In this document: one piece after another, positions 39,767 through 59,800 of the stretch
How the letters are laid out: each line of letters begins with the position of its first letter
Numbering within the stretch: position 1 is the stretch's first letter
Origin: Bartonella birtlesii IBS 325
GTDB taxonomy: Bacteria; Pseudomonadota; Alphaproteobacteria; Rhizobiales; Rhizobiaceae
Direction: 5' to 3'
DNA: 64,000 nucleotides
Assembly (NCBI RefSeq): GCF_000273375.1
Contig: NZ_CM001557.1
Coordinates: 1,001,625-1,065,624 of the forward strand
Position numbers and translations under genes: made by a program
Notes under the pieces: generated by a model
What the model was told of the DNA's origin: nothing
Seen by the model: the letters and a program-made list of their open reading frames with translations, nothing else
The model's database searches: none

Positions 39767-41255
39767 TAATTTCTTGTTTTAAGAACGGATGATTGATGAA
39801 TTTGAGGAATACTTTCTTGATCAACTAGATGTGTAGGATAATGTCCAGTAAAATAATGATCGGTAAATTGTGGATTAGCGTTATTTCGTTTTTCTCCTGT
39901 TACAGCAAGATACAGACCATCCGTTGAAAGAAATTCCAATGAATCAGCTCCTACAAAATTGCACATGGATTTTAAATCTGGATATTGATTAGCCAATAGA
40001 CTTTCAACTTTAGGTGTATCAATACCATAGAAATCAGGATAAAAAATCATAGGGCTAGAAACGCGCATATGCACTTCTTTCGCTCCAGCATCGCGGAGCA
40101 TTCGCACAATTTTGAGGGACGTTGTTCCACGTACAATGGAGTCATCAACTAGAATAACGCGTTTTCCTTCTATCACAGGGCGATTTGCAGAATGCTTTAA
40201 TTTTACCCCAAAAGCACGAATTTGCTGTGTTGGTTCAATAAAAGTGCGGCCAACATAGTGATTGCGAATAATACCAAGCTCAAAAGGAATTCCAATCTCT
40301 TGTGCATAGCCAATTGCAGCAGGTGTTCCGCCATCGGGAACGGGAACCACAACATCACCCTCACAAGGTGCTTCTTGTGCCAAACGAGTTCCCATATTTT
40401 TACGCACCGTGTAAACACTGCGCCCTCCAACAATTGAATCAGGACGTGCAAAATACACATATTCAAAAAGACAAAGTTTTTCAGGCTTCTCATCCTCTGG
40501 TTTTATAATTTTTTCGTAATTTCCCCATTTTTTTGTATTTCACATATGATAATTTCCCCATTTTTAACATCGCGGACATATTTTGCTCCAATAATATCAA
40601 GTGCACAGGTTTCGGAACAAAAGATTGGTTTACCATCAAGCTCACCCATCACGAGAGGTCGAATTCCTATTGGATCTCGCGCTGCAATGAGTTTAGTGCG
40701 TGTGAGTGCCAACATGGCATATCCGCCTTCCACTTGCCGAATAGCATCGACAAAACGATCAGATGACGATTCATAACGTGAGCGGGCAATAAGATGGAGA
40801 AAAACTTCTGAATCTGATGTCGATTGACAGATGGCACCCGAAGCAATGAGTTCACGGCGTAATGTAAGACCATTGGTAAGATTGCCGTTATGGGCAATAG
40901 CAATACCTCCAGCTTTTAATTCAGCAAAAAGAGGCTGAACATTGCGTAATGCTATTTCTCCAGTTGTTGAATAACGGGTATGTCCGATAGCACGATTTCC
41001 TGGTAAACGAGCAAGTGTTACCGGATTTGTATAGTGATCACCAACAAGACCTAAATGCTTTTCTTGATGGAACATTTTATGATGATAAGAAACAATTCCA
41101 GCAGCTTCTTGTCCACGATGTTGAAGTGCGTGAAGCCCAAGAGCTGTTAATGTTGCAGCATCTTCATGCCCAAGGATACCAAAAACTCCACATTCTTCAT
41201 GAAGAGTATCATCATCCAATAAAAAATCCTGACAGAAAATGTTGCTTTTTGTCAT
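39766..41255 (-). pseudogene. purF: Amidophosphoribosyltransferase PurF, frame broken by one base
   Basis: PurF makes phosphoribosylamine from PRPP and glutamine, the first step of purine synthesis. The N-terminal part (41255-40503) starts with a short propeptide and the glutaminase nucleophile Cys22 in HEECGVFGI. It stops at 40503 soon after GEIIICEIQKNGEITKK. The rest continues in another frame as IIKPEDEKPEKLCLFEYVYFARPDS and carries the PRPP loop VILVDDSIVRGTT. The break lies at a run of six A (coding strand; plus-strand 40509-40514); seven A would give ITKKIIKPED and an intact protein of about 495 residues. Either an undercalled base or a recent mutation. cvpA is upstream and the SDR gene downstream. 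Confidence 0.88.
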
Positions 41256-53827: not shown

Positions 53828-54495
53828 ATGATGACATTCTTTGGGAATGAATTGGCTACTAAAAAAAGGAATAAACGTCGCGGTTTTTTATTTATTCTCT
53901 CTTCGCCTTCAGGAGCTGGTAAATCAACCCTTTCTCGCTTACTTTTAAAAGAGGGACAATTAGAGCTCTCCATCAGTATGACAACACGGCAAAGACGTCC
54001 TAGTGAAGTGAATGGTCTTCATTATCATTTTATTTCAAAAAAAGAGTTTGAACGCAAACGTGATGGTGATGAGTTTATTGAATGGGCAGAAGTGCATGGA
54101 AATTATTACGGCACTTTACGTGAAAGCGTTGAAGATGCTTTGAGTGTTGGCCGAGACATGTTATTTGATATTGATTACCAAGGCACAAAGCAGCTACAAA
54201 AAAAATGCTAGGAGATACTGTATCTGTTTTTATTCTTCCACCATCAATGAAAGAGCTCGTTTCACGTTTACATCGTCGAGCAGAAGATAATCAAGATACC
54301 ATTGATTTACGATTAGAGAATGCACGGACGGAAATACAGCATTGGCATTTTTATGATTATGTCGTTATTAATAAAGATTTAAATCAATCTTTGTCGCTTA
54401 TTAAATCGATTTATTTAGCCGAAACAGTAAAACGTGAGCGGTGCTCCTTTCTTGAATCTTTCATTGATGGACTTATTGCTGAAAAGATTGATTAA
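53828..54495 (+). pseudogene. gmk: Guanylate kinase Gmk, frame broken by one base at a poly(A) run
   Basis: Gmk phosphorylates GMP to GDP and is generally essential. The first part (53828-54211) has the P-loop [11 protein letters not shown] near residue 26 and the GMP-binding [19 protein letters not shown], then [14 protein letters not shown] before a stop. The remainder (54205-54495) continues in the -1 frame as [25 protein letters not shown]. The break is at eight A (54198-54205). Nine would give QLQKKMLGDT and an intact protein of about 222 residues. The heptamer A-AAA-AAA (54199-54205) would also allow a -1 ribosomal shift that restores the frame exactly. mltG is upstream; ksgA converges. 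Confidence 0.88.
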
Positions 54496-57448: not shown

Positions 57449-59800
57449 TTATCTTTTTTCCAATGTCTGCAATTGTACGCAATGAAAGAGAGAAATTAAA
57501 GTTTTGTAGAGGTGTTTTTTTCCTGGATCAGTTATTTGCTGATAACCAAATGTTAGTCCAAAACATTCATCTGTATAGTTCAAGCTGATTCCTCGTTTTG
57601 TGAATGTTCCAGATACTAAATCATAACCGGCATTGCTGTTAACAGACCAATAGTTAGCTAGTTTTATGCCCGTTTGAAACGAAATTTCTTGGCGCTCTTG
57701 TGGATGTTCATAATCTGGTTGATTTGCAATGTAAGCATATTGCACTGCTCCCCAAAAATTTTTCCATTTCTGTGCTACTTCGATTTCGTTGCGACGAATT
57801 TTTCCTGTCTTTTTATCAAAACGTCCACGAGATTCTAAGGAAAAGCCGTTTTTATTATTTGTACCAAACATTGCCACATAGTCTGAACGTGTTGCCTCTA
57901 AGCTAGAATGAATGCCTACGTTAACAAAGTCCTTTTCTGCAAAAGAATTTTTTCCTGCAAGATGAAAGGATTGTCCAACAAGGCCATAAAAAGACCAGTT
58001 ATTGTTGAAATCTCCAGAATATCTTAAGCCTATATTGGCTCTTGTTCCACCTTCTATACGGTCATAACCAGAGAATTTATCACGTTGAAAGAGGGTGGTT
58101 GCATCAAATATGAAGCTTTGCGCGTCTTCATTAGGGATTTGTCCTATATAGCGTTCATTATTTCGTATAAAAATTTGTGCCGTTGGTTCTATAATATGTG
58201 TAGAATTTGCCGATGTAATGAGGAACGGATAGCGTAATTCTAAGCCAGCAGTTGCCATGCCACGAACTGTTAAACTACGAAAAGTGGATGAGAAATCATT
58301 TGGGATATGAACAGTATTATTTTCGTGCATATTTGTGGAAATAATATCAGCACGTAAAGAAAGAAGAGGAGCTAGTATCAGCCCACTGCGCATATAGAGA
58401 CGTTTTTTCCACTCTAGTTCATTTGTTAAACGAAAACTATTTCCTGCAATACCAGAAATCCTAACAGTGTTGAGAGGATTCCCATTCCAGTTAGTAGAAC
58501 TAAAATCAGTATGACGACGATAAATTGATTGCATATTGCTATGAAAAGTAAGCTCTCCATGATAAATTGATTTGGCTGGGGTAAAAAAGTAATCAATGCG
58601 GGGAAGAACCCACGCTTGCCGAGAATGACGTTCATGAGGATCATCCAAGATCAAATCTTGAACTTTGAAATGATAAAAACGCATATCAAAATAATTTTTC
58701 CCAGCCAGACCATTCAAATAAAGTTGAGAAAGTTGCGTGGGATTATTATAGTTCTCGAGTTTATAAGCACGACTAAAATGTCGATCAGATTGTGAAAAAA
58801 TATCCCATCCGTAAGCCCAGTGTGAATTAATACGAAAATCTCCTTTTGTTGCAAACATATAACGATTTTTATGCTGTGCATCAATTGTATCATTGTTAAA
58901 GTTGCGCGGTTTCATTTGGTATATATGAGCAAAGCGAATGTTATAATTGCCTGTTTTAAAACGTTGACGCCATTCAGCTTCTGTTAAAAGTCCTTGTTGT
59001 GTATAGAGGGTCGAAGAAAATGTAAAATCATAATAAGGTGCGAGATTCCAAAAGTAAGAATTTTTTATACCCATGCCAAGATAATCGGCATAAAAAAAGC
59101 GAGGAGCAAGGAAACCGCTTGCACGTTTCACCGTTGGATCATTAAGTTCAAAAGTTGGAAAGTGTAGAATTGGTACACCAAAAATTTCAAAATAACTATT
59201 TTCAAAGCGAATTTTTTTAGTAACATTATTCCATATGATCTTTCTTGCTTTAATCCTCCATATAACTTCTCTATCTGGTTTATAAGAGCAAGGTTCACAG
59301 GCTGTGTAAGTGGCATTATCGAAGACTGTTATTTGACTGTTGTTACGTGTAGCACTTGCTGCTGCAAAATGAATGTTGTTAGCGGTATCAATGCGTAAAG
59401 CCTTTACAAATCCTTCACCGAAGTCTTTAGTCATATCAATTTGGTTAGAATAAATTCTGTTACCATCTTTTTGAATAACTTCAACATTTCCTTGCGCTAT
59501 GATTCGCCCTGTTTTTTGATTGTAAGTGACTTTTTGAGCGACGACCTTATTGCCATCATATTCGATTTGGACATTGCCTTGTGCGGAAACAGTATTTTCA
59601 TCACGGTTGTAGATAAGTTCATTTGCAGAGAGCAAGAGAGGACTTACCGGATTTTGGATGCGACTTTGAGCAAAAAAAGGAGAGCCATTGGCATTTACAG
59701 AACAAGATAAAGATATAATTAAGATACAGCCCATAATATTTTTCAAAGTAAGGGGACTTAATTTTGCCAAAATCACTTTTTTACTTATTAATACGTTCAC
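57449..59800 (-). CDS. lptD: LPS-assembly protein LptD
   Basis: LptD is the outer-membrane barrel that places LPS in the outer leaflet. The 783-residue precursor has a signal region, an N-terminal OstA/LptA-like domain at about residues 50-160 (NELIYNRDENTVSAQGNVQIEY, in its key part SAQGNVQIEY, and GNRIYSNQIDM), and a long C-terminal beta-barrel. Conserved pieces such as FGVPILHFPTFELNDPTVKR near residue 205 and YSVNSNAGYDL-like strands near the end fit the family. The start codon is GTG at 59800, directly after the lptG stop. surA follows downstream. Confidence 0.92.
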   Translation of the reverse strand: MNVLISKKVILAKLSPLTLKNIMGCILIISLSCSVNANGSPFFAQSRIQNPVSPLLLSANELIYNRDENTVSAQGNVQIEYDGNKVVAQKVTYNQKTGRIIAQGNVEVIQKDGNRIYSNQIDMTKDFGEGFVKALRIDTANNIHFAAASATRNNSQITVFDNATYTACEPCSYKPDREVIWRIKARKIIWNNVTKKIRFENSYFEIFGVPILHFPTFELNDPTVKRASGFLAPRFFYADYLGMGIKNSYFWNLAPYYDFTFSSTLYTQQGLLTEAEWRQRFKTGNYNIRFAHIYQMKPRNFNNDTIDAQHKNRYMFATKGDFRINSHWAYGWDIFSQSDRHFSRAYKLENYNNPTQLSQLYLNGLAGKNYFDMRFYHFKVQDLILDDPHERHSRQAWVLPRIDYFFTPAKSIYHGELTFHSNMQSIYRRHTDFSSTNWNGNPLNTVRISGIAGNSFRLTNELEWKKRLYMRSGLILAPLLSLRADIISTNMHENNTVHIPNDFSSTFRSLTVRGMATAGLELRYPFLITSANSTHIIEPTAQIFIRNNERYIGQIPNEDAQSFIFDATTLFQRDKFSGYDRIEGGTRANIGLRYSGDFNNNWSFYGLVGQSFHLAGKNSFAEKDFVNVGIHSSLEATRSDYVAMFGTNNKNGFSLESRGRFDKKTGKIRRNEIEVAQKWKNFWGAVQYAYIANQPDYEHPQERQEISFQTGIKLANYWSVNSNAGYDLVSGTFTKRGISLNYTDECFGLTFGYQQITDPGKKHLYKTLISLFHCVQLQTLEKR

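Follow-up and report, generated by a model that had tools for sequence, protein, structure and literature searches.

Guanylate kinase is normally essential. In the assembly of Bartonella birtlesii IBS 325 (a single contig of 1.83 Mb with a GC content of about 38%, hereafter G000), its gene, gmk, is split into two reading frames at a run of eight A's. Does the living bacterium carry this break and make the enzyme by some form of slippage, or was a base dropped in the assembly? The window analysed here is a 64,000-nucleotide stretch of the contig (1001625-1065624). Four of its features define the locus, with positions counted from the first letter of the window:

53828..54211, + strand: 5' part of gmk, an open reading frame (ORF) of 127 codons (127 aa) that matches positions 2-109 of TIGR03263 (guanylate kinase)
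54198..54205, + strand: run of eight A's (A8), the point at which the frame is lost
54199..54205, + strand: A_AAA_AAA heptamer in register with the 0 frame, a formal -1 slippery site
54205..54495, + strand: 3' part of gmk in the -1 frame, 96 codons (96 aa) from an ATG, matching TIGR03263 positions 112-179 of 180

The two gmk ORFs overlap at the A8 run. Because together they cover positions 2-109 and 112-179 of the 180 in TIGR03263, almost the whole kinase is present. The preliminary description of this DNA had stated that gmk is interrupted at 54198-54205, stops at 54211 and continues in the -1 frame; both the ORFs and the TIGR03263 coverage bear this out. The codons at the run likewise read as it had claimed: CAA AAA AAA TGC TAG, with the heptamer A AAA AAA (54199-54205) in register and the TAG as the 0-frame stop at 54211. 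The break is isolated within gmk, and the earlier impression of a gene free of other decay holds as well: neither half contains an internal stop, and dN/dS is low for both halves in both of the genomes that carry A8 (G000 and a second genome, G038). When G000 is compared with the corresponding locus of its near relative G013 (L039), omega is 0.06 and 0.11 for the two halves, beside medians of 0.09 and 0.15 for 390 intact pairs; values this low would be seen whether the gene were intact, recently broken or rescued. An intact second gmk elsewhere in the genome had also been contemplated, but a PF00625 profile search of the 1.83 Mb contig found no second copy, the two gmk pieces being its sole matches. 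The order of genes around the locus is fabF, mltG, gmk, ksgA, two genes that we take to be pdxA and surA, and lptD.

Homopolymer errors occur mainly in long runs, and most of them are losses. The comparisons described below make it very probable that A8 is a homopolymer undercall in the assembly and that the living bacterium has an intact gmk. On this explanation, long A/T runs in coding genes of many kinds would at times come out one base short in the assembly, the more frequently the longer they are; gmk lies on such a run and would have been hit. The same type of break is found at two other genes in the window:

39769..41255, - strand: purF, with a single break by one-base loss at the A/T run 40509-40514
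57449..59800, - strand: lptD, in which a one-base loss at the A/T run 57515-57521 puts the last ~20 codons into another frame, as judged against G013 and a third relative, G063

With gmk, these make three losses in the window. The comparison was extended to 460 kb of G000 (a 400 kb stretch plus the window), which was set against 400 kb of G013, 160 kb of G063 and 596 kb of G038. This G000 sample contains 13 one-base losses in or beside A/T runs, spread over 12 otherwise intact genes: gmk, purF, lptD, recR, secA, nrdI, thrB, ubiA (two losses), pepN, a pstA-like gene, an AsmA-family gene and an MFS transporter. The automatic rule flagged 16 loci, among which no one-base gain in an A/T run was found. 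Ten of the 16 were kept (11 events, as ubiA counts twice) and six were dropped, the choice being made by eye; those dropped were two unclear indels, a repeated family with a longer indel, a locus at which G000 and G013 agree and G038 differs, and two seemingly non-genic loci. The automatic rule had flagged neither lptD nor secA, and both were added by hand (secA through the reverse comparison) to give the total of 13. Where the same run could be aligned in coding DNA and differed by one base, G000 had the shorter run in 13 cases and the other genome in 2 (the comparisons overlap).

The losses pay no heed to gene function: gmk, secA, lptD, glmS, purF, recR, nrdI, ubiA, thrB, pepN and transporters are affected alike. 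The glmS case, a one-base loss in an A run, lies outside the sample (L221, C1 1394600-1395900) and was met by chance in the search for purF. Four of these genes (secA, lptD, glmS and gmk) are ones that a living cell should need; in secA and lptD the 3' end alone is affected. mutS and mutL are full length in G000, G013, G038 and G063, so a mutator lineage is not indicated. Two further observations concern the same genes. Upstream of glmS, G000 has a 4-base gap relative to G013. The secA frame (L134:5750-8899) shifts near its 3' end and continues into a Fur-like regulator as one frame of 1050 codons, probably a false fusion.

The share of runs inferred to have lost a base in G000 climbs with run length: 0/464 for runs of 6, 2/193 for runs of 7, 6/55 for runs of 8 and 5/10 for runs of 9. 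The length before the loss is itself inferred for 7 of the 13 losses, gmk included, in which the compared relatives have an interrupted run and G000 may instead have lost the base that broke it. If only cases in which a relative has a pure longer run are counted (6 of the 13: recR, lptD, the pstA-like gene, one of the two in ubiA, purF and pepN), the corresponding figures are 0/464, 2/193, 3/52 and 1/6.

Control genomes were treated by the same method. G013 has no loss in 181 runs of at least 7 (Fisher p = 0.001 against G000; 0.04 by the strict count), and A/T runs of at least 6 are involved in none of its five broken loci; the excess of one-direction losses at A/T runs that is observed in G000 is therefore absent from its near relative. 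No loss was found in 68 such runs of G063 (p = 0.08; strict 0.35). G038 has 4 losses in 271 runs (p = 0.025) and, by the strict count, 0 in 267 (p = 0.013). Its broken loci number nine, of which four were kept as losses, one is a gain in an A run and four were dropped; the kept losses are in gmk, thrB, a T run and a gabD-like gene, and at all four the relatives have an interrupted run. With the three controls pooled, the strict count in G000 stands apart at p = 0.001.

We have, then, one-base losses in a single direction, with a rate that rises with run length and no regard for function, and their origin most likely lies in the sequencing rather than in the cell. Among the affected runs, those that are now of 6 or 7 (purF, ubiA, glmS) are too short for efficient rescue by slippage, which makes a sequencing origin the simplest common cause. 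Genes that relatives have whole are split by one-base homopolymer errors in other bacterial assemblies as well (Kastor, PMC12007338; Homopolish, PMC8011154); for G000, the evidence comes from the assembly.

Several points stand against an undercall. The run is interrupted in the relatives, the run-length spectrum of the genome is unremarkable, non-coding runs have no asymmetry, the same A8 occurs in G038 (an assembly with few such breaks), and a gmk repeat of A8-9 has been published from Illumina data; the last two weigh most. As to the spectrum, a genome-wide shortage of long runs in G000 was not significant (the ratio of runs of at least 9 to runs of 8 is 0.072, versus 0.109-0.115; p = 0.34-0.54), although its direction fits an undercall. 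In aligned non-coding runs, G000 is shorter in 8 cases and the other genome in 10, a comparison that is underpowered, with just one run of at least 8. The interrupted run matters most for gmk itself: the closest gmk relatives of G000 (L039, L219 and L043) have A7 followed by G, and an undercall would require a prior silent change that gave a pure run. This extra step is plausible, because runs of 9 have arisen at least nine times at this site in the genus.

That count comes from a search for gmk in 71 genus genomes, with one genome per species. The gene is present in 70; the exception, G018, is 85% complete. Among the 70, gmk is split at the A8 site in G000 and G038 (2.3 Mb in 90 contigs) alone. 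The preliminary description had looked to the length of the A run in other genomes as a guide, and the tract was read in 69 of the 70 (G064 was left out): the longest A run is 7 in 32 genomes, 9 in 16, 8 in 2 and shorter in 19. On a gmk tree built from the alignment with the tract excluded, the two A8 genomes lie apart and require two changes by parsimony, and the runs of 9 have at least nine separate origins.

A second poly(A) tract lies in a lysine-rich stretch before the kinase domain (near codons 12-16); in 11 of the 69 genomes it holds 8 to 11 consecutive A's. In G062 (L124), an A8 in this second tract, near codon 14, separates the usual ATG from the kinase frame; this break is invisible to the Pfam search and was seen by reading the tract. 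Of the other genes searched across the genus, cmk and pyrH were picked blind; each scored above the cut-off in 70 genomes, and neither is broken in any of these or in G000. purF is broken in 2 of 71 genomes (G000 and G025) and unbroken in 69, and recR is broken in 3 of 71 (G000, G054 and G065); the break in G000 was the reason for examining both genes, which makes their G000 entries biased and not independent.

The preliminary description had offered three readings of the break: an undercall, transcriptional slippage and ribosomal frameshifting of the dnaX kind. The undercall is the one favoured here, slippage is possible but nothing in these data needs it, and dnaX-like frameshifting is disfavoured by an unconserved heptamer and a poor downstream fold. 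Should A8 be real, transcriptional slippage would be the best candidate mechanism: RNA polymerase would slip on the run, so that some of the gmk mRNA would be full-length. Poly(A) frameshifts rescued in this manner are reported for Buchnera and Blochmannia (PMC3017870). We regard this as unlikely for G000. A8 reaches the length of about 8-9 that slippage needs, the gene is otherwise intact and lacks a second copy, and purifying selection has acted on both sides of the run; an intact gene would, however, show low omega equally. The presence of A8 in the distant G038, as a second origin on the tree, also speaks for slippage, as does PMC1088944, where eight A's are described as able to slip (about a tenth of the product in human apoB, and IS elements of Deinococcus and Nostoc). 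According to PMC5574713, insertions in runs increase exponentially with length, but restoration of frame was not seen in that study. Against slippage, similar losses in G000 affect runs of 6-7, where slippage should be weak. The likeness to the insect endosymbionts is that of a one-base indel in an A/T run of an essential, otherwise intact gene; those genomes have a much higher AT content and far more long A runs (PMC3017870), whereas G000 has a GC content of about 38% and is affected at runs now of 6-7 too. A literature search found no report of transcriptional slippage in Bartonella, nor for guanylate kinase.

The published gmk repeat bears on slippage and also on a further possibility, namely a genuine A8 in a gmk that acts as an ON/OFF contingency locus and happened to be OFF in the sequenced clone. 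In Table 1 and section 11 of Rodriguez-Pastor and others (PLoS Pathog 2024, PMC11466379), gmk is among the candidate repeats with ON/OFF states, as A8-9 in Bartonella khokhlovae (three strains, Illumina reads downsampled to 90x); the species column of the table lists species in which two or more strains have a run of at least 9. The gene, the run lengths and the genus are those of the G000 case. The differences are that those genomes are Illumina drafts of another species and that the main text is silent on which poly(A) tract varies and which strain is A8, so that the published run may be the other tract, near codons 12-16. In sections 11 and 12, repeats of this kind are discussed as candidate contingency loci, and rescue by slippage does not come up. 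For G000 we consider an OFF state highly improbable: gmk is single copy there and is present in 70 of 71 genus genomes, and a clone in which a normally essential kinase was fully OFF should not grow. Equally doubtful as slippage at the single locus is its wider form, in which gmk would be truly out of frame in several Bartonella lineages on two poly(A) tracts (at codon 124 in G000 and G038, and near codon 14 in G062), Gmk would be made from slipped transcripts, and the essential GMP-to-GDP step would be throttled by a leaky A8/A9 switch.

Two readings locate the event in translation or in real decay, and both seem to us extremely improbable. A -1 ribosomal frameshift at a real A_AAA_AAA would give the full protein, as in dnaX, and the heptamer is indeed in register, as it is there; gmk differs from dnaX in having neither a conserved site (A8 in 2 of 69 tracts) nor a downstream structure. 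No stimulatory structure was found 3' of the heptamer: the folding energy of the next 70 nt is -3.9 kcal/mol, and 198 of 200 shuffled versions do better (z = +2.0, and +1.7 over 50 nt); in G038, 161 of 200 shuffles equal or beat the native sequence (z = +0.8). In PMC4066793, E. coli heptamers without stimulators exceed a background of about 0.055% by a factor of about 10 at most; at such a rate little Gmk would be made. A programmed ribosomal frameshift at gmk was rejected on these two grounds, the lack of site conservation and of downstream structure. Alternatively, gmk could be a genuine recent pseudogene, or its halves could be translated separately, with a restart at the ATG at 54205 that overlaps the stop region (ATGCTAG). 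Against this, G000 has no second gmk; no ribosome-binding site is evident by eye just 5' of this ATG, where the sequence is A-rich, and in most of the genus relatives, which read through, the ATG is an internal codon.

As an artefact, the undercall is a warning: this genome is rated 99.98% complete, yet the 460 kb sampled contain 13 such frameshifts, roughly one every 35 kb, and because of them the list of pseudogenes in G000 is not to be trusted before a check of the reads. If A8 were real, gmk would be a rare essential nucleotide kinase that relies on polymerase slippage outside insect endosymbionts, and the reading of ON/OFF repeats in Bartonella genes would change. The interest thus shifts from the G000 locus to the genus, and to whether any Bartonella truly carries gmk A8 and lives by slippage.

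Breaks at shared or similar positions were also seen in other genes of these genomes. thrB (homoserine kinase) is out of frame relative to G013 at the same C/T stretch in G000 (C1 about 942811) and G038 (C1 about 34646), both of which are A8-gmk genomes. recR of G054 (L223) breaks at the same A-rich codon 37 as recR of G000 (C1 about 764385), and these two genomes are distant. purF of G025 (L224) and recR of G065 (L226) each have a one-base loss beside a G run.
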